Positions 45,880 through 56,860 of a DNA stretch of 64,000 bases are shown piece after piece (positions within the stretch are counted from its first letter, which is position 1; each line of letters starts with the position of its first letter). The notes below the pieces were generated by a model, which was given only the letters and a program-made list of their open reading frames with translations, ran no database searches and was not told where the DNA came from. Origin of the DNA: an uncultured Candidatus Saccharibacteria bacterium (GTDB lineage Bacteria > Patescibacteriota > Saccharimonadia > Saccharimonadales > Saccharimonadaceae). Where the stretch lies: assembly GCA_947305705.1 (NCBI GenBank), contig CAMZEB010000001.1, positions 248,001-312,000 on the forward strand. Direction: 5' to 3'. Both the position numbers and the translations under genes were made by a program.

Positions 45880-45948
45880 GGTTTCGGTAACCGAATGAGT
45901 AAGATAAAATCTCTGTTAACTAATTTCTTCGCTAGAGATAAAGGATGC

Positions 45949-45954
45949 TATAAT
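45949..45954 (+). promoter_or_regulatory. Extended -10 promoter of the structured RNA
   Basis: TGC-TATAAT. Its expected start (about 45961) coincides with the first base of the inverted-repeat RNA. No clear -35. Confidence 0.65.
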
Positions 45955-45960
45955 AAAAAT

Positions 45961-46111
45961 GCTACAACATTACAATCATAATAGAGTCTAACAGTTTTGC
46001 GGACTCTCCAAATAAAAGGCGGAAAGCGGCCCTGCTGCAGTCTTAGTTTTTCTTTTATTTGGAGAGACTCAGGATTGTTAAAGTTGTAGCGACTCGGTAG
46101 GGTCGCTTTTT
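45961..46111 (+). ncRNA. Highly structured RNA upstream of the restriction-like cassette
   Basis: About 150 nt with its own promoter and terminator. Outer stem GCTACAACATTACAATC (45961) pairs with GATTGTTAAAGTTGTAGC (46073-46090). A 15-bp perfect inner stem CTCTCCAAATAAAAG (46004-46018) pairs with CTTTTATTTGGAGAG (46052-46066), with a ~33-nt apical loop containing CGGCCCTGCTGCAG. An alternative hairpin AGAGTC...GACTCT competes for the same bases. It ends in AGCGAC-N8-GTCGCT plus T5. No known Rfam family is recognised, and a 6S-like shape or an attenuating leader are both possible. Confidence 0.55.
46088..46111 (+). terminator. Terminator/attenuator of the structured RNA
   Basis: AGCGAC-TCGGTAGG-GTCGCT followed by TTTTT, 34 nt before the first cassette gene. 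Its 5' strand begins in the last bases of the RNA outer stem, so the two structures may compete. Confidence 0.75.
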
Positions 46112-46144
46112 GCTTTAGAGCAAAGCGATTCGAACATAGTCGCT

Positions 46145-46822
46145 ATGCAAGAGGATACTAAAAGGTCAACTAAAAGGGAAGCACAAGCACGACAAACTCT
46201 CGAGAAGGGTATTAAATCTCGTGAGCGCGTTCGTGATGCAGGCGAAGTCTTCACGCAGCCGCGCGAAGTGAAAGCCATGTGCGATCTCTGTGAGCCTACG
46301 ATTTCTGAGATTGACAAAAAAGTCCTCGAACCAAGTTGCGGTAATGGCAACTTCCTAGTTGAAATTCTCGAACGAAAATTACAAAAGACAAAGAAAAATA
46401 AATACAAAATCCTCATTGCGTTGAGCAATATTTACGGGGTAGATATTGCGCGAGATAACCTTGAGGAAGCACGTGATAGGATGAAAAATATCGTGCTGGA
46501 TTATTTGGCTGGTGAAGAGACTCCTGCCGAATTTTTGATGGCTATGAATGCAATTCTGAAGGCGAATATCTGTTATGGGAATATGCTGACAGGCCGTAAA
46601 AAGATAGATTTGATTAATTGGATCCCTGATGGGAATGGTGGTTTTGAACTAGAAAAATGGAACTTTGCTGAGATTGAGAAAAGGCGCGAAGAGTCTCGAG
46701 TGGCAAAGATTGATGAATTAGAAAAGATTTCTAATGAACTACTACATCCTCCGCTAAAGCTTCCAGATAAGCCGAAGCCTAGACCGAAACAAAAAGTCGA
46801 AAAGCAAGCAAGTCTGTTTTAG
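46145..46822 (+). CDS. Methyltransferase-like subunit of a restriction/defence cassette
   Basis: 225 aa. VFTQPREVKAMCDL, then VLEPSCGNGNFLVEIL (SAM motif I, PSCGNGNF at 63-70) and IYGVDI (motif II) are those of N6-adenine DNA methylases. However, the catalytic (N/D)PPY motif is absent, and the last ~40 residues are Pro/Lys-rich (KLPDKPKPRPKQKVEKQASLF). It may bind SAM but need the next protein for catalysis. There is no SD, and the ATG lies just after a small hairpin. It is the first gene of a four-gene operon. Confidence 0.75.
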   Translation: MQEDTKRSTKREAQARQTLEKGIKSRERVRDAGEVFTQPREVKAMCDLCEPTISEIDKKVLEPSCGNGNFLVEILERKLQKTKKNKYKILIALSNIYGVDIARDNLEEARDRMKNIVLDYLAGEETPAEFLMAMNAILKANICYGNMLTGRKKIDLINWIPDGNGGFELEKWNFAEIEKRREESRVAKIDELEKISNELLHPPLKLPDKPKPRPKQKVEKQASLF

Positions 46823-46834
46823 GGAAAGGAAGAA

Positions 46835-48355
46835 ATGAGCGAACAAGTAAATAATCTATTAAACAAAGGCTATAACCCAGATGTTTTGGAGTGCTTGGCG
46901 AACCTTTCAAACGATGAGGTGTTTACGCCTCCAAAAGTCGTAAATAATATGCTTGATATGTTCCCGGAGGAGATTTGGAGTAATCCGGATTTAACATTCC
47001 TAGATCCGGCCTGCAAAACGGGGGTATTCTTGCGCGAGATTGCGAAACGTCTAATTGTGGGGCTAGAAGAGAAAATCCCCGATTTACAGGAGCGCCTTGA
47101 TCATATTTTTCATAAACAACTATATGGTATTGCGATTACGGAATTAACAGCGTTGGCGAGCAGAAGGAGTTTATATTGTAGTAAATATGCGGACGGGAAG
47201 TATTCGGTAAGTAAATTTAACAATCCGAATGGCAACATACGATTCGTGTCTATGAATCATGCGTGGGTGAATGGGAAATGTAAATATTGTGGGGCGAGCG
47301 CTGAGCAGTATCAGCGGGCGTCGGAGCTAGAAACGCATGCTTATGAATTTATACACACTAATAATCCGGAGGAGATATTTGGAATGAAATTTGACGTTAT
47401 TATTGGAAATCCGCCATATCAGCTGAGTACTGGCGGCGCTCAAGCTCAGGCGACTCCTATATATAATAAGTTTGTTGATCAAGCGAGAAAACTTAGGCCT
47501 AAGTACCTATGTATGATTACTCCAAGTAGATGGTTTACGGGTGGTTTTGGCCTCGATTCATTCAGAAAAACAATGCTAGAAGACGATAGTCTTCGGATAA
47601 TTCATGATTATCTAGATGCGTCGGTTTGTTTTCCGGGTGTCGAAATAAAAGGCGGTGTTTGTTACTTCCTATGGAAAAGAGACGATAAGGGCAAGTGTAT
47701 GGTTAATACATATAGAGGCGAACTGCTTTCTTCTAGTATGGAGAGAGATTTGCTTGAAGATGGTCTAGACTTTTTTATCCGATATAATGAAGCAGTTCCG
47801 ATATTCAAGAAGGTTAAGATATTCAATGAAAAGTCTTTGACGGAGATTATTAGCTCGCAGAGACCTTTTGGTCTTCCGACAAATTTTGATGGATTTATAA
47901 AAGATAAAGACGAAACGCACTCTATAAAGATATACGCTAACAAAAAAGTTGGATATGCGCCATTGTCGGTAATTACTAAGAATAGTGGTCTGATACCGAA
48001 ATATAAGGTATTGACTCCAAAGGCAATCGGGTCTGGCGATAGTCGTACGGATTGGGTGAAGCCGATTTTGGCAGAGCCAGGGAGTGCTTGTACGGAAACA
48101 TATATTATCCTTGGGGCATTTGACTCTAGGGAGGAGGCGGAAAACCTGATTTCATATACGCAGACAAAGTTTTTTCATTTTATGCTTACTTTAAAAAAGA
48201 ATACACAGGACGCATTGTCGAAAGCATATGTCGCAGTTCCTTTACAAGATTTTTCAGAATCATGGGCTGACGATAAATTGTATAAAAAATATAACTTATC
48301 TCCGGATGAAGTATCATTTATTAATGACATTATTACTCCAGCGGAGGATAGATGA
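46835..48355 (+). CDS. Eco57I-type N6-adenine DNA methyltransferase
   Basis: 506 aa. EVFTPPKVVNNML, then FLDPACKTGVFL (motif I, ~55-66), a CKYC-containing insert at 149-152 that may bind zinc, and IIGNPPYQLS (motif IV, NPPY at 192-195). The C-terminal half is an Eco57I/TaqI-like target-recognition region (ITPSRWFTGG, VEIKGGVCYFLW). It methylates adenine in a specific DNA site. Preceded by GGAAAGGAAG SD. Its stop overlaps the helicase start (ATGATG). Confidence 0.88.
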   Translation: MSEQVNNLLNKGYNPDVLECLANLSNDEVFTPPKVVNNMLDMFPEEIWSNPDLTFLDPACKTGVFLREIAKRLIVGLEEKIPDLQERLDHIFHKQLYGIAITELTALASRRSLYCSKYADGKYSVSKFNNPNGNIRFVSMNHAWVNGKCKYCGASAEQYQRASELETHAYEFIHTNNPEEIFGMKFDVIIGNPPYQLSTGGAQAQATPIYNKFVDQARKLRPKYLCMITPSRWFTGGFGLDSFRKTMLEDDSLRIIHDYLDASVCFPGVEIKGGVCYFLWKRDDKGKCMVNTYRGELLSSSMERDLLEDGLDFFIRYNEAVPIFKKVKIFNEKSLTEIISSQRPFGLPTNFDGFIKDKDETHSIKIYANKKVGYAPLSVITKNSGLIPKYKVLTPKAIGSGDSRTDWVKPILAEPGSACTETYIILGAFDSREEAENLISYTQTKFFHFMLTLKKNTQDALSKAYVAVPLQDFSESWADDKLYKKYNLSPDEVSFINDIITPAEDR

Positions 48356-51147
48356 TGTCTAACAAGATTATAGATTTAACTCGACCTGAGATTGAGCCTA
48401 AAATTTATGCATATGAACTCCCGGGAATTCATGACGGTTATTTAAAGATTGGATATACCGAGCGCGATGTTAGGCGGCGCGTTGATGAACAGACGCACAC
48501 TGCTAGTGTTACGCCAAGAATCGTGTTTCAGCATTCTGCTGTCAGAGATGATGGTTCAGTGGTGTCAGATAAAGATATCCATCGAGTATTGCGCGACTGG
48601 GGAAAACATCAACTGAATGAGGGGACTGATAATAATGAATGGTATGAATGCACGTTAGATGATGTCGAAAGAATTCTCAATGCTTTGCTCAATGGTGGCT
48701 CTTTGAATCGTGTTAGGAACTTAGATTTTCGCCCTCGCCAAGAGCAGGAACGTGCCGTCGCGAAAACTAAGGCTTACTACGAGTCAATGAAGGAAAGCGA
48801 TCCGGAATCGCGGCCGAAGTTTTTATGGAACGCAAAGATGCGTTTTGGCAAAACTTTCGCAAGTTATGAGCTTGCGAAGACCATGGATTTTAATCGTATC
48901 CTCATTTTGACGTTTAAGCCTGCCGTTGAGTCTGCCTGGCAAGAAGATCTTGAGACTCATTGCGATTTCGAAGGTTGGAATTTCGTGTCAGTAAAGAAGG
49001 CTGAATTACAAGGGCTCACTTTGAACCAGCTTTATGAGAAAACATATAAAGGCAAGCCAATAGTCGTGTTCGGTTCTTTCCAAGATTTACTTGGCACTAC
49101 GCCTAATGGCGGTATTAAACCAAAACACGAATTTATTAATAGCGAAGCATGGGATTTAGTTATTTTCGATGAATATCATTTTGGTGCATGGCGCGATAAT
49201 GCCAAAAAATTGTTCGCTGGCGCATCCGATAGCGTCGATGAAGAATCGGACGATGTCGTAGATTTTGATGCAGAGGCTTATCAGAAATATGAAGCAGGAA
49301 ATGCATACAACGAGTCATTTCTTCAAATCGATACGCAGTATTATCTATTTCTTTCTGGCACGCCATTTCGTGCGATAAATAGTGGCGAGTTTATTGAAGA
49401 GCAGATTTTCAACTGGACTTATTCTGACGAGCAATACGAAAAAGAGCATTGGGATGAAAGCCATCATGGCGAGCCGAATCCCTATCTTTCTTTGCCGAAA
49501 ATGTGCATGATGACCTATAAGTTGCCGGAGGCTATTCGCAGGGTTGCAGAGCAGGGTCAGTTCAATGAATTTGATTTGAATGTGTTTTTCTCAGCAAAAA
49601 CTGAAACAGGTCGGGCGGAAGATGCGCAGTTTGTTTATAAAGACGAAGTTCAAAAATGGCTAGATTTGATTCGCGGTGGCTACGAAGAGGCTTATGTAGA
49701 TAATCTCAGGCAGGGCAAGGATAAACCGCCGATGCCGTTTTCGCATGGTCCGTTACTTAGAACTCTTACGCATACATTTTGGTATTTGCCGAATGTGAAT
49801 AGCTGTTTCGCGATGGCGAATTTACTGAAAGAGCCGCAAAACACTTTTTATCACGATTATAAAGTGAATGTTTGCGCCGGCCCTGGCGCTGGTGTTGGTT
49901 TAGCCGCATTGAAACCTGTTCAAGAATCGATGCATGAACCGCTGAAGTCTAAAACTATCACCTTGTCCTGTGGTAAATTAAATACCGGCGTGACAGTAAA
50001 ACCGTGGTCGGGTGTGTTTATGTTGCGCAATTTGAAATCGCCGGAAACGTATTTTCAGACAGCCTTCCGCGTTCAGTCGCCGTGGGTGATGAAAGACGAA
50101 GAAGGGCGTGACGTGATTATGAAGGAAGTTTGTTATGTCTTTGACTTTGCGCTTGATAGGGCATTGAGGCAGATTTCTGAATATTCATGTAAGCTGAATG
50201 TTGAGGAGCAAAATCCAGAGAAGAAGGTCGGCGAGTTTATTCATTTCTTGCCGGTGTTGGCTTATGACGGTAGCTCGATGAAGGAGATATCGGCAAGCGA
50301 GATTCTCGATATGACGATGTCTGGTACGTCGGCGACTTTACTTGCGCGTCGTTGGGAATCTGCGCTACTTGTTAACGTCGATAACGATACGCTTCGCCGC
50401 ATCATGAATGATCCACGTGCCTATGAAGCAATTATGAGCATTGAGGGCTTCCGTGCACTCGGCGACAATTCAATAGAAACTGTGATTAATAAATCTGAAG
50501 CCGTAAAGAAAGCAAAAGCCGAAAATGTTGAGCGAACTCCTTCCGAGAAGAAAGAGCTAAGTGAGGAAGAGAAGAAGACGAAGTCACTTCGTAAGCAAAT
50601 TCAGGAAAAACTCATCAAGTTTGCTACGCGTATTCCGATCTTCATGTATCTTACCGATTATCGTGAGTTGACCTTGAAAGAAGTAATTACTAAGCAGGAG
50701 CCGGATTTATTCAAAAAGGTAACCGGCATTAACGTATCGGATTTTGAATTACTATGCGAGATAGGTGTGTTCAATGCATCGCTGATGAACGAAGCCGTCT
50801 ATAACTTTAAAAGATATGAGGATGCAAGCCTAAGCTATACGGGTATTAATCTTCATACGAACGACGCTCAAGTTGGCGGTTTCGATGAGGTTATTACTCG
50901 CGAAGAGTTTTATGATCGACCGGAAACTAATATTACAGTAGAGAACGCTGTTCCGATCGAAGAAGCGGCTGAGGAGGACGAGGCGGAAAAACTTGAAATC
51001 ACGAAGGGTACCATTGTGCATTCGGAGAAGTTCGGCCAAGGGCGAGTGGTGACGATGAAAGATGATGTTATCTGGGTTGCGTTCAAGGATGGGTACAAGA
51101 CGTTCCGATTCCCGGATGACGTTGAGAATGGTTTTTTGCAGTTATAA
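48352..51147 (+). CDS. GIY-YIG nuclease / SF2 helicase fusion (restriction subunit)
   Basis: 931 aa. Residues ~15-115 form a T5orf172-type GIY-YIG domain (KIYAYELPG, YLKIGYTERDVRRRVDEQ, EWYEC with the expected catalytic Glu). FRPRQEQ (127-132), MRFGKTFAS (Walker A, 163-171), VIFDEYHFGAW (DEYH 273-276), LFLSGTPFRAI and FQTAFRVQSPW are superfamily 2 helicase motifs. The end (VHSEKFGQGRVVTMKDDVIW) resembles the UvrD C-terminal Tudor-like fold. It probably translocates on DNA and cleaves it when the site is unmethylated. Confidence 0.88.
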   Translation: MMSNKIIDLTRPEIEPKIYAYELPGIHDGYLKIGYTERDVRRRVDEQTHTASVTPRIVFQHSAVRDDGSVVSDKDIHRVLRDWGKHQLNEGTDNNEWYECTLDDVERILNALLNGGSLNRVRNLDFRPRQEQERAVAKTKAYYESMKESDPESRPKFLWNAKMRFGKTFASYELAKTMDFNRILILTFKPAVESAWQEDLETHCDFEGWNFVSVKKAELQGLTLNQLYEKTYKGKPIVVFGSFQDLLGTTPNGGIKPKHEFINSEAWDLVIFDEYHFGAWRDNAKKLFAGASDSVDEESDDVVDFDAEAYQKYEAGNAYNESFLQIDTQYYLFLSGTPFRAINSGEFIEEQIFNWTYSDEQYEKEHWDESHHGEPNPYLSLPKMCMMTYKLPEAIRRVAEQGQFNEFDLNVFFSAKTETGRAEDAQFVYKDEVQKWLDLIRGGYEEAYVDNLRQGKDKPPMPFSHGPLLRTLTHTFWYLPNVNSCFAMANLLKEPQNTFYHDYKVNVCAGPGAGVGLAALKPVQESMHEPLKSKTITLSCGKLNTGVTVKPWSGVFMLRNLKSPETYFQTAFRVQSPWVMKDEEGRDVIMKEVCYVFDFALDRALRQISEYSCKLNVEEQNPEKKVGEFIHFLPVLAYDGSSMKEISASEILDMTMSGTSATLLARRWESALLVNVDNDTLRRIMNDPRAYEAIMSIEGFRALGDNSIETVINKSEAVKKAKAENVERTPSEKKELSEEEKKTKSLRKQIQEKLIKFATRIPIFMYLTDYRELTLKEVITKQEPDLFKKVTGINVSDFELLCEIGVFNASLMNEAVYNFKRYEDASLSYTGINLHTNDAQVGGFDEVITREEFYDRPETNITVENAVPIEEAAEEDEAEKLEITKGTIVHSEKFGQGRVVTMKDDVIWVAFKDGYKTFRFPDDVENGFLQL

Positions 51148-51161
51148 GAGAAAGGATAAAA

Positions 51162-51929
51162 ATGGCAAATAACAAGAGCGGCGTAATATATGTATTGACG
51201 AATCCGTCATTTCCGGAATATGTAAAGATTGGCTATGCGGATAATCTCGAGAAAAGGTTGACAGATTTAAACCGAAGCGAATGCTTACCTTTTGCCTTTC
51301 GCGCATACTGCGTCTATGAAGTTGATGGGCGATTAAAAGATAAAGACGTTCATGCGTTGATTGATAAAATTAATCCCGAGCTACGCGCGATAGAGACATT
51401 TGATGGGAAGCCTCGGGTGCGAGAATTTTATAACATTTCAGCCGAGGATGCTTATGAGATTCTCTATAGCATAGCCACAATAAGTGGGACTGTTGGTCGG
51501 CTGAAATATATTACTCCGGAAGGTCATGATATATTAGACGAAAAAATAGCATTGGATATACAGGAAAACGGAAGAGTTCAGTATACAGAAGAAGATCATA
51601 TAATGCATAGTTCCGCTACGACAAAGCGTCTTTATATGGTGATTCGCGAGAAAATGCTCGCATTAGGTGATATAACGATTGAGCCAAAGAAAGAATATGT
51701 CGCGTTTAAGAAAAAGAATAATGTTTGCGATATCGAAATTCAGCGCAGCAAGCTGAAAATTACTGTCAATTTGCGCCATGGAGCTATTGATGATCCGGCA
51801 GGAATTGCAAGAGATATTTCGAATGTCGGCCATTGGGGAAATGGTGATTACGAGATACACTTAACGGATGAAAGTATGCTTCCTGAAACACTTGCAATTA
51901 TTATGCAATCTTATCGTGCGTCGAGATAA
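51162..51929 (+). CDS. GIY-YIG (T5orf172) protein with DUF5655-like C-terminus
   Basis: 255 aa. GVIYVLTNPSFPEYVKIGYA with REFYNIS further on is a T5orf172-type GIY-YIG nuclease domain (residues 6-100). Residues ~185-255 (EIQRSKLKITVNL, then DDPAGIARDISNVGHWGNG) match the DUF5655 type often attached to predicted restriction enzymes. AGAAAGGA SD. It follows the helicase by 14 nt and is probably the last gene of the cassette; a second nuclease of the same fold in one operon is unusual. Confidence 0.82.
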   Translation: MANNKSGVIYVLTNPSFPEYVKIGYADNLEKRLTDLNRSECLPFAFRAYCVYEVDGRLKDKDVHALIDKINPELRAIETFDGKPRVREFYNISAEDAYEILYSIATISGTVGRLKYITPEGHDILDEKIALDIQENGRVQYTEEDHIMHSSATTKRLYMVIREKMLALGDITIEPKKEYVAFKKKNNVCDIEIQRSKLKITVNLRHGAIDDPAGIARDISNVGHWGNGDYEIHLTDESMLPETLAIIMQSYRASR

Positions 51930-53227: not shown

Positions 53228-54706
53228 GTGGTCGAATTATCGGCGAAAAATGGTCTCAATCGCTGCCCCAATTGTGGGGGCAGCGATATAGAGACTGATG
53301 CTGCAGCAGGAAAACTGAAGTGCAAATATTGCCAGACACTTTTTGATGCAGCGACCGACAACGCCGCCGGTGGGATGGAATCGCTCAAGGGCGATACGGT
53401 TAATCAGGGTGCCTCGGATATTATTCCGGGCGAGGACATCGTCCAGACTTTTAAATGTCCGGCTTGTGGCGCTGAGGTTGTGATAAATACCGATGAGGCG
53501 ACCAGCGCGTCTTGTCACTGGTGCCGCCATATTTTCTCGGTTAATGAGAAAATTAGCAACGGTGCAGTGCCAGATTTAGTTTTACCGTTCAAGATTACAA
53601 AAGAAGAAGCGATCGAGAAAGTGCGCGAATCGGTGGATTTGAATTCGCCGTCTCTACTGACGGAATTTCGCCAGAATTTCAAACCAGAGGAAGTGCGTGG
53701 GGTCTATTTCCCATACATGATCATCGACTTGAATTCGCACTGGACTTCGTATGGGGAAGCGCAAAAATCGATTGGCGATACTTCGCATCCGCCATACCAA
53801 TATGAAGAATACAATATCTCGCGTGAGTTTGACTTACTAGTTGACGATTTGACAGTTGAGTCATCGGCTGGTCGGTTGAACCAGGATACCTATGTAAATT
53901 CGAACAATATTATTAATGCAATTTTGCCGTTCGATACTGAGAACGCAGTAGCGTGGAATGCAAATTATTTGCGCGGCTTTGCATCGGAGCGACGTAGCGT
54001 TGACACGAATAGCTTAAAAGAGGTCGTGGCTTTGCAGGCGGGCGATATGGCGCGTCGCAAAATCAAGGCTGATTCGCCGCAATATGATCGTGGTATTCAC
54101 TGGGAAAATGAACATCTCAAGGTAAATGGCTCGAAGTGGAAAGCGGCTTATTTACCAGTTTGGCTTTATAGCTACAAGCCAGAGAATGAATCAAGAATTT
54201 ATTATATTGCGATTAATGCGCGTACGGGTGAAACAGTTGGCTGCGTGCCGACGCACGGGACATCAGGGCAGAATATTATGGCGCGTCATCATCACGAGGA
54301 TGAGACTCGCTTTGAGATAAAGAATCTTGTCGCGAAAGATGATTTGTCTAAGACAGACAAATCGTACAAAAAAGAGATAGATTTTCGCAACGATACGCGC
54401 GTAATCGGTTCGTTGTCGCATGGCCGCGAAGAAATGCTTGGCGTCGAGCAGGCGCGTTTTAAGAACGGCGCTAACTATACACACGCGTCAAAGTCCTCGG
54501 GCTCAAGCTTTAGTACGATTTTGATTATTATAATATTTATTGTGTTTATTTTGCTTGCATTATTGTTGCCTGGTGGGAGCGGCGGTTCTGGCTCTGGTTC
54601 GAGTTCAAGTTGGGATTCTGGATCAAGCTGGGATAGCGGCAGTAGCTATGATTCTGGCGGCAGTTACGGCGGCGATTCGAGCAGTGGTTTTAGTTACGAT
54701 TGGTGA
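53228..54706 (+). CDS. Zinc-ribbon membrane protein (YdjG/TFIIB-like)
   Basis: 492 aa from a GTG at 53228, with GGAG 8 nt upstream inside the end of the SPFH gene. Two zinc ribbons: C13/C16/C32/C35 (NRCPNCGGSD, KCKYC) and C76/C79/C95/C98 (KCPACGAEVV, SCHWC). A long soluble region holds YLPVWLYSY and NARTGETVG motifs, then one membrane helix near the end (STILIIIIFIVFILLALLL) and a Ser/Gly/Asp/Trp tail (SSWDSGSSWDSGSSYDSGG). Likely partner of the SPFH protein. Confidence 0.8.
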   Translation: MVELSAKNGLNRCPNCGGSDIETDAAAGKLKCKYCQTLFDAATDNAAGGMESLKGDTVNQGASDIIPGEDIVQTFKCPACGAEVVINTDEATSASCHWCRHIFSVNEKISNGAVPDLVLPFKITKEEAIEKVRESVDLNSPSLLTEFRQNFKPEEVRGVYFPYMIIDLNSHWTSYGEAQKSIGDTSHPPYQYEEYNISREFDLLVDDLTVESSAGRLNQDTYVNSNNIINAILPFDTENAVAWNANYLRGFASERRSVDTNSLKEVVALQAGDMARRKIKADSPQYDRGIHWENEHLKVNGSKWKAAYLPVWLYSYKPENESRIYYIAINARTGETVGCVPTHGTSGQNIMARHHHEDETRFEIKNLVAKDDLSKTDKSYKKEIDFRNDTRVIGSLSHGREEMLGVEQARFKNGANYTHASKSSGSSFSTILIIIIFIVFILLALLLPGGSGGSGSGSSSSWDSGSSWDSGSSYDSGGSYGGDSSSGFSYDW

Positions 54707-54721
54707 TAAGTGAGGTAAAAA

Positions 54722-56860
54722 ATGACGACGACAATGAAAAATCAGGAAAAGAACGGTGCGAATCGTTGTCCGAATTGTGGCGCAACTGATGTTAGTCTGG
54801 ATACGAAATCTGGAAAATTGAAGTGCAAATTTTGTCGTACGTTATTTAAGCCTGAAAAGTCGGCAAACGCGCGAGGCGGTGTCGATAAACTAAAGGGTAG
54901 AACTGTTGGCTCTGGCGCTGCGGACATTATTCCAAGCGAAAAGATTATTGTGACGCTCAAGTGTCCGGCTTGTGGCGCAGAGGTTGTGATAAATACTGAT
55001 GAGGTTTTGAGTGCGCGCTGTCACTGGTGTCGCAATATCCTATCGATAAATGAGAAGATGCCGAATGGTGCGGTGCCGGATTTGGTTTTGCCGTTCAAAA
55101 CAGAGAAATCGGTTGCCGAAGAGAATATTCGCGAATTCGTAAAAAAGCGTCGTTTCTTTGCGCATCCGACATTCAAGAAAGAATTTGCGCCAGAGAACGT
55201 GATGGGCGTGTATTTGCCATATATGGTTGTAGATGTGAATGCTCACGCGAAGATGAGCGGCGAGGCAGAACATCTTATTCGAAAATATTCGCGGGGGAGC
55301 GGGAATAGTCGACGCACGTATTATGATGCTGAAGCGTTCAAAGTTACGCGTAATTTTGATTTGCTCGTGGATGATCTTACGATAGAATCGTCAAGTAAGC
55401 GTTTGCAGCAAGATGTGCGTTCGAACACAAATAACGTGATTAATGCAATTATGCCATTTGACACGGAAAACTGTGTCGATTGGAATCCGAATTATTTACA
55501 CGGGTTTGCGAGCGAACGACGTGATACGAATGTTGATGATTTGGCAAAGCAGCTAAAACTGCAGGTCGGCGATATTGCGCGTTACAAAGTTAAAGAGACG
55601 ATGACTTATTACGATCGCGGCGCAAAGTGGGAGTCTGAGGAAATTGAGGCAAAAGGCTCGATGTGGAAGGCAGCTTATTTGCCGGTGTGGCTTTATAGCT
55701 ATCTTGAAGATAACGGCAAGACGAAGATGCTCCATTATGTGGCGGTGAATGCGCGCACTGGCGAGACGATGGGTTCGGTTCCAATCAATAAAGCGCGATT
55801 GTTGCTGCTATCTGGTATTTTGGAATTTTTTGGCATAGTGCTCGGTTTGTATTGGATATTATTCTGGCTTGGCATTGATGTAGATGATGATAATCCGTTC
55901 TTGTTTGGTTTGGTTGGTTTGACGCCTGGCGTGATTTTCTATTGGGTGAAGTGTGCGAAATATCGTAATATGAATGCGCGCCATAAACACGAGAAGGAGA
56001 CGGCTTCGGAGATAACGAATCTCGAGAAAACTGATGTTTCGATTGGGCGCAGAAATGGTTTGCGCAATTCACGAATTGCCGGTGAGAATGATTCGGTCGT
56101 GAAGGGTGTCGTTGCAAAATCTGGCGAACGTATGATGGGCGAGAAGATGGCGAACTTCATTGGCATCGGACGGATGGTTGGTTCGAAGATGGGTGAAACC
56201 GTGACGGGGCAACAGACTATCGCGAAAGCGCAAGCGAATTCGCAAGCGCTTCGTGCGATTGGGATAATATTTGCCACTTTGTTTATTGTGCCGTTTTTGA
56301 TTTTTGTCGTGATGTTTATTGTAGTGATTGTGTTTGGGGCAGGGGATTTTTCGAAGAAAAATTCTGTCTCGGTACCGACGAGTACATTTACGACAATTCG
56401 GGATAATTTCAGAAATTATGCAGAAAGTCATAGCTACGTGTATTCAGATATTGCGAGCGAAGTCTATATATATAACAGAAATGTGAGTGAGAAATATTCG
56501 GTCTTTGAGTTGTCGCAGGTGCAAAATGGCGCAATGTTCTCGGTGACGAAATTGATGGAATTGTCGAAGAATGATTTGAGCAAATCGAGTTTTGCGACTG
56601 AGGCAGCGAAGGACTTGAACAATAAATTGTATGGCTGGGATTTCAAAGAGCGTAAGTCTGGCTTAGTGTCGGACGGCAATATAAAGATGGCGATTCGGAT
56701 GTATACGAGAGACGACACAAAGAACAAAACATATACGATGTGCGATTTGCGCGAAGAGTTGTTATCGAGTACGAAACTGCTCGGCAATAATTATAAAGTT
56801 GAGCTGAATTGTGTCGAAATGGACAAAGCGACTAAGAAAGAGAATAAGATAGATAACTAA
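54722..56860 (+). CDS. Zinc-ribbon membrane protein, larger paralogue
   Basis: 712 aa, clearly paralogous to the preceding gene: ribbons C16/C19/C35/C38 and C81/C84/C100/C103, then the same NGAVPDLVLPF, NNVINAI(M/L)PFDTEN and YLPVWLYSY stretches. Here two membrane helices lie mid-protein (LLLLSGILEFFGIVLGLYWI, FGLVGLTPGVIFYWV) and one near 520-550, followed by a ~150-residue domain with no known family. GAGGT SD. A tandem duplication followed by divergence. Confidence 0.8.
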   Translation: MTTTMKNQEKNGANRCPNCGATDVSLDTKSGKLKCKFCRTLFKPEKSANARGGVDKLKGRTVGSGAADIIPSEKIIVTLKCPACGAEVVINTDEVLSARCHWCRNILSINEKMPNGAVPDLVLPFKTEKSVAEENIREFVKKRRFFAHPTFKKEFAPENVMGVYLPYMVVDVNAHAKMSGEAEHLIRKYSRGSGNSRRTYYDAEAFKVTRNFDLLVDDLTIESSSKRLQQDVRSNTNNVINAIMPFDTENCVDWNPNYLHGFASERRDTNVDDLAKQLKLQVGDIARYKVKETMTYYDRGAKWESEEIEAKGSMWKAAYLPVWLYSYLEDNGKTKMLHYVAVNARTGETMGSVPINKARLLLLSGILEFFGIVLGLYWILFWLGIDVDDDNPFLFGLVGLTPGVIFYWVKCAKYRNMNARHKHEKETASEITNLEKTDVSIGRRNGLRNSRIAGENDSVVKGVVAKSGERMMGEKMANFIGIGRMVGSKMGETVTGQQTIAKAQANSQALRAIGIIFATLFIVPFLIFVVMFIVVIVFGAGDFSKKNSVSVPTSTFTTIRDNFRNYAESHSYVYSDIASEVYIYNRNVSEKYSVFELSQVQNGAMFSVTKLMELSKNDLSKSSFATEAAKDLNNKLYGWDFKERKSGLVSDGNIKMAIRMYTRDDTKNKTYTMCDLREELLSSTKLLGNNYKVELNCVEMDKATKKENKIDN

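Follow-up and report, generated by a model that had tools for sequence, protein, structure and literature searches.

What is the role of the short, highly paired RNA that precedes the restriction-modification (R-M) operon in the stretch of DNA analysed here? This stretch, hereafter the window, comprises 64,000 nucleotides (nt) of an uncultured Candidatus Saccharibacteria bacterium (contig CAMZEB010000001.1, positions 248,001 to 312,000). A first-pass annotation, made from the letters of the window, had described a self-contained RNA gene at the boundary of a gene cassette and proposed that it was either a regulatory leader or a functional defence RNA. Our analysis favours the leader, because relatives of the RNA keep the promoter, the structure, the terminator and the position, and because each RNA matches the start region of its own gene; nothing was found that points specifically to a defence RNA. 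We propose, with confidence only slightly above even, that the RNA is a terminator-gated regulatory leader of the R-M operon, in which the 3' strand of the outer stem would mask the start codon of the first gene. Sequence comparison establishes the elements that this proposal draws on, namely the promoter element, the predicted crossing helices, the terminator, the start-site complementarity and the modular exchange.

The RNA and its predicted folds

All features given here lie on the forward strand of the window. An extended -10 promoter element, TGCTATAAT (45946-45954), was found where the first-pass annotation had placed a promoter. It includes TATAAT at 45949-45954, and TGnTAWAAT was present at the matching position in all of the 17 loci that were first compared. 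The structured RNA, which was recognised from its folding score, its identity among same-genus copies and a search of Rfam, is about 150 nt long, counted between the predicted start and the terminator (45960-46116). Its folding energy is -56.8 kcal/mol, whereas dinucleotide shuffles gave -36.1 +/- 3.4 kcal/mol (z = -6.2; 0 of 200 shuffles as low), in agreement with the earlier description of a highly paired RNA.

The outer stem, P1, was defined by helix comparison across loci and pairs 45960-45968 with 46083-46091; inside it lies P1b, in which ACAATC at 45972-45977 pairs with 46073-46078. The outer stem of about 17 bp that had been described is thus present, but as 9 + 6 bp with an internal loop and not as 17 contiguous pairs. 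The inner stem, P2, is indeed a perfect 15-bp helix (46004-46018 with 46052-46066). The strongest helix of the RNA is P3, a 22-bp pairing of the apical loop (46016-46037) with 46095-46116 that crosses P1, and the equivalent helix in one group of relatives, group E, covaries (see below). A local intrinsic terminator hairpin, AGCGACTC-GGTA-GGGTCGCT followed by T5 (46088-46112; arms 46088-46095 and 46100-46107), is present as described, but it is not the separate element that had been supposed, since its 3' arm and the U-tract can also form the 3' strand of P3, with which the hairpin would compete. The minimum-energy fold of all 156 nt includes P3 and so differs from the fold given earlier; when the tail of the RNA is left off, folding gives approximately that earlier form. 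The alternative hairpin AGAGTC/GACTCT (45983-46007), in which 45983-45988 would pair with 46002-46007 in competition with P2, can likewise be drawn as proposed. Its conservation among relatives is moderate only, and P1/P3 and the P1 3' strand/start codon appear to be better candidates for a switch. Gene 1 begins with ATG at 46145, 34 nt past the terminator as previously stated, and no second TATAAT was found between the terminator and this ATG.

We also searched the genome of the window itself (885 kb in 18 contigs), in which the RNA occurs as a single copy. Among 436 extended -10 sites it ranked top for the P1+P3 architecture, with a score of -47.8 against a 1% quantile of -33, and the next matches include tRNA genes. 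A second, orphan RNA was observed in the same genome (L228 8427-8553 on the minus strand, G000:C17). It has a promoter element, TGATATAAT, an outer stem of about 20 bp, AGCCCGACTTACAAAATTTTTCC...GGAAAAATTGTAAGACGGGCT, and a U-tract; no gene follows it, and it has no Rfam match. The Rfam search with the window RNA matched no family at the gathering score or at E <= 10, and that with the other RNA groups matched no family either, the lone match being one tRNA. A literature search found no description of such RNAs. The window RNA is an undescribed RNA, absent from Rfam.

Relatives, start regions and downstream genes

BLAST with the window RNA found only four loci in the genus. Three other same-genus genomes carry the RNA, 89-90% identical and each time directly before M1, the homologue of gene 1. 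The upstream genes of these copies differ, and the downstream enzyme is fused in two of the three. Two parts show high identity, one running from promoter to terminator and the other at the start codon; the spacer between them varies in length. In this group (group A) the RNA (89-90% in nucleotides) is more conserved than M1 (71-85% in amino acids). More distant M1 homologues in the family have an RNA at the same place and of the same plan, without sequence similarity. Homologous cassettes lacking structure at this position would have spoken against the first-pass annotation; the structure is kept, though the sequence is not. What links the groups is structure, position and start-site matching, and the class escapes a plain sequence search. 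In total, about 45 loci in nine sequence-unrelated groups share one architecture, which runs from TGnTAWAAT through the outer stem P1, the inner stem, P3 crossing P1 and the terminator to the gene. P1 begins about 6 nt after the promoter, and P3 joins the apical loop to the tail just past P1. The P3 tail holds the U-tract in groups A, C, E and G, and a separate terminator follows in groups B, D and F. These relatives are draft metagenome-assembled genomes, and the architecture scan of genomes other than that of the window covered selected loci.

The crossing pair was then compared with chance. With the promoter position fixed and the best P1+P3 crossing pair scored per locus, all 300 dinucleotide shuffles fell short of the true sequence at every one of 17 loci, which represent seven sequence-unrelated groups. 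P3 carried five double changes, six single and two broken in group C, and three of each kind in group B. In group E, for which 19 loci were available, all of 209 cells of P3 were paired and seven of its 11 pairs were doubly changed; none of 500 row permutations was as good, and slid helices reached at most 59%. P1 of the same 19 loci was 97% paired, again with 0 of 500 permutations as good. The covariation testing left out P1 of group C and the start-site pairing of group E, in which there was too little variation. The predicted competing or linked structures thus covary in homologues, as attenuator-class leaders require.

The start region of gene 1 (46124-46147) contains a hairpin, AGCGAT...GTCGCT, directly before the ATG. 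An anti-start segment of the RNA, TGTAGCGACT (46085-46094), is complementary over 10 bp to 46138-46147, where AGTCGCTATG would pair with it; the first-pass annotation does not mention this match. In most groups the start region repeats a strand of the RNA, so that the 3' strand of P1 (or P2) is complementary to the start codon region. This complementarity amounts to 13-18 bp in group B, 14-15 bp in group E, about 10 bp in group H and 14 bp in group G, in which it falls just inside the gene; it is weaker in groups C and D. We swapped the start regions between the nine groups in all 362,880 permutations. The pairing of each RNA with its own start region was the best of these by duplex energy and ranked 2 of 362,880 by longest run, so the complementarity exceeds chance (P about 3e-6 over nine groups). 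The genes of group E that start with GTG provide an example: where the RNA changes (AATCGTAGG / AATTGTAGG), the start region changes with it (CCTACGATT / CCTACAATT). In folds of whole leaders the start region is mostly paired; for the window and for genome G036, its partner is the 3' strand of P1. A start hairpin, GTGGCGC..AGGAGGCGCCA, was also observed in group F (start regions of L152, L155 and L046); these three loci have no obvious ATG near it, and the candidates for a start codon are ATA, ACG and TTG.

The same modules were found before unrelated genes. A search with the group-C RNA reached genomes without an M1 match, and in four of them (G223, G334, G045 and G347) the module heads a Type III Mod gene. 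When the 16 closest Mod homologues within the family were inspected, 12 proved to have a module, assigned partly by eye to group C, E, H or I. Group E is present in 17 of 45 genomes of the genus and heads two Mod families, M1, a DEAD helicase and a bacterial sugar transferase; group F additionally precedes an EcoRI-type methylase (EcoRI_methylase), and a second N6_N4 methylase is among the genes headed by a module. Between M1-type and Mod-type members, similarity stops at the start codon. By these comparisons, the predicted module spans the region from the promoter to the start codon and heads non-homologous genes. In G036, two group-E copies 3.5 kb apart stand before two genes, and successive genes at this locus are thus each preceded by the same predicted RNA. 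The open reading frame of a DEAD/DEAH helicase there (L075 2459-5698, about 1079 amino acids) has its own group-E module near the M1 module. A group-E module was further observed shortly upstream of the sugar transferase gene in G001 (L154) and G024 (L156), and the RNA class is therefore not limited to R-M.

The operon downstream of the window RNA consists of three genes. Gene 1 (M1, 46145-46822) encodes a 225-amino-acid subunit resembling N6-adenine methyltransferases (Pfam, alignment, AF2 and Foldseek) without the NPPY catalytic motif. Gene 2 (M2, 46835-48355) encodes an Eco57I-type methyltransferase with NPPY, and gene 3 (R, 48352-51147) a protein with GIY-YIG (T5orf172) and DEAD/ResIII helicase domains; both were assigned by Pfam and by their homologues on the DrdVI plasmid. 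The DrdVI R-M system of Deinococcus wulumuqiensis (M1-2.DrdVI, pDrdVI) has the same three genes in the same order; it is of type IIG and is reported to produce m6A at GCAGCC (PMC6430315). Identity to the pDrdVI counterparts is 38% for M1, 47% for M2 and 52% for R, and by homology the cassette is a DrdVI-type R-M operon. An alignment of 17 relatives showed that M1 keeps the SAM-binding motifs and lacks NPPY, and for the AF2 model of M1 Foldseek gave weak matches to adenine methyltransferases, CamA among them (best E 0.02). The M1 family is apparently a catalytically silent partner methyltransferase; it is widespread across bacteria and plasmids. The R-M genes are followed by the gene of a T5orf172-DUF5655 protein (51162-51929). 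Further on, past an SPFH/Band-7 gene, two large proteins are encoded (53228-56860) in which a zinc ribbon was the only domain matched.

Proposed mechanism and rival explanations

According to the mechanism that we propose, most transcripts would end as the RNA of about 150 nt, and gene 1 would be made by read-through. In the read-through mRNA, the start would be open when the anti-start strand is held in P1, and closed when the anti-start strand and the local start hairpin mask the start codon. The choice between P1 and P3 and the choice at the start region would jointly set the expression level of this methyltransferase-first operon, and delay or dosage control would be a natural use of such a leader. 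The RNA and the start region would have changed together, which would yield matched pairs, and the module would have been swapped between unrelated R-M operons. Attenuators and start-codon-masking leaders, such as ribosomal-protein leaders and riboswitches, combine a promoter, alternative structures, a terminator and masking of the start codon. The window RNA appears similar to them in its promoter, its alternative structures, the terminator between RNA and gene and the proposed masking of the start codon. Unlike them, however, the module family has no ligand pocket or sequence conserved across groups, the RNA and the start site change together, and one module heads unrelated genes.

Several points weigh against this mechanism. 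P3 may be a long form of the terminator that does not coexist with P1 as a pseudoknot, and the crossing helices P1 and P3 may accordingly be alternatives instead of a standing pseudoknot. The group F RNA matches its own start region weakly, the weakest of all groups. In two genomes, G016 (L153) and G025 (L152), a group-E RNA that has a promoter and a terminator of its own stands in tandem before a module of group B or F, and these extra RNAs lack a group-E start site. In addition, the complementarity between the P1 3' strand and the start would arise automatically from a start region that is no more than a copy of the P1 5' strand, and a copy that is read by a protein as a mimic would account for it as well. 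A wider formulation is plausible, though we would sooner bet against it: these RNAs would be an undescribed class of portable riboregulators of Saccharibacteria, interlocked as pseudoknots and each with a matched start-codon lock, which has diversified into non-crossing pairs and passes as a unit between unrelated defence and surface genes; they might sense copy number or phage infection.

It is unlikely, in our judgment, that the RNA, once released, works in trans as an antisense RNA that senses dosage, its 3' strand pairing with the start region of gene 1 mRNA, so that the operon would be limited by its own copy number. In favour of this reading are the discrete RNA bounded by a terminator, the matched RNA/start pairs and the stand-alone tandem RNAs, and diversified pairs would prevent cross-talk between R-M operons in one cell. 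However, the anti-start strand is locked in a P1 of 9-20 bp, and the two G036 copies of one group stand before two genes. Action in trans is also unneeded, and we prefer action in cis, because the RNA and its target are encoded in one transcript. IS10 RNA-OUT and plasmid antisense RNAs limit a gene to whose start region they are complementary. They are encoded on the opposite strand, whereas the window RNA lies upstream in tandem and would act through copied sequence. The diversification into matched pairs would fit an avoidance of cross-talk among several R-M operons per cell.

We consider it improbable that a host protein or nuclease binds both the RNA stem and a look-alike hairpin at the start codon, with the RNA as decoy or feedback site. 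As such mimicry would predict, the start regions of groups A-D are hairpins in which an RNA stem recurs; in groups E and G, by contrast, a single strand is copied, and no hairpin of the same sequence is present at the start. Because the groups have entirely different sequences, one host protein would need to recognise shape and not sequence, and self-binding by the methyltransferase is unlikely, given that the same RNA serves unrelated proteins.

We rate a little lower still the idea that the RNA is a functional part of the defence system, such as a guide, a component of a ribonucleoprotein or an RNA resembling type III antitoxins. In its favour, the majority of downstream genes are R-M genes, the group A RNA is better conserved than M1, stand-alone tandem copies exist, and the order of RNA, terminator and protein gene equals that of type III toxin-antitoxin loci (ToxIN), which consist of a promoter, a structured RNA, a terminator and a protein gene. 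The window RNA differs from ToxIN in its start-codon complementarity and in having no internal tandem repeats, and the downstream genes are mostly methyltransferases, with no endoRNase like ToxN, CptN or TenpN. Closely related RNAs head unrelated proteins, a sugar transferase included. This weakens M1 as the partner of the RNA, and an RNA that works only as part of one system is therefore less likely. DrdVI-type systems of several other phyla leave little or no room for an RNA, and none was seen, by eye only, upstream of DrdVI or its relatives on plasmids of Firmicutes, Rhizobium and Mycolicibacterium. R-M operons without the RNA exist elsewhere, and in G053 the promoter sits right at the ATG; the RNA thus fits a regulator rather than a part of the enzyme. 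M1-2.DrdVI, moreover, has been cloned and expressed in Escherichia coli (PMC6430315). Other candidates were rejected. No tRNA or tmRNA was found at the RNA site, no reverse transcriptase (as for a retron) among ten genes downstream, and no nuclease of the CRISPR/tracr kind among the neighbours. A small peptide was discarded because frames shift among the four closest copies and other groups have no ATG there. A phage origin was rejected as well: IMG/VR contained none of the conserved segments from groups A, C and E, and a search of the viral collection with gene 1 was empty.

Finally, a DNA-level operator or recombination site, whose repeats merely resemble RNA stems, is very improbable: inverted repeats near promoters and a module recurring at cassette boundaries with differing neighbours would suit it, but G-U pairs, compensatory changes, terminators, crossing helices of 10-22 bp and start-codon pairing are sensible at the RNA level.

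Comparison with R-M control and biological meaning

Antisense RNA control, analogous to that of type I toxin-antitoxin systems, has been described for the EcoRI and Eco29kI R-M systems (PMC3874152). The window RNA would be similar in that an RNA controls an R-M operon. However, the EcoRI and Eco29kI RNAs arise from reverse promoters inside the genes, whereas the window RNA lies upstream on the same strand, and it is folded with crossing helices and a copied anti-start strand.

Mobile R-M operons must balance protection against cutting, and the means by which systems without control (C) proteins do so are poorly known. Here, within a single bacterial group, four or more unrelated families of methyltransferases share a recognisable RNA module, and each module offers a directly testable RNA/start-codon pair. 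Riboswitches have been named as promising tools (PMC11665869), and these RNAs would supply naturally occurring RNA/start-site pairs, which may be orthogonal, for building expression tools in organisms that have none. From the sequence comparisons, the modules look like a portable family of expression switches, with matched RNA/start-site pairs before several unrelated methyltransferase genes, and they would rank among the few described regulatory RNAs of Patescibacteria.
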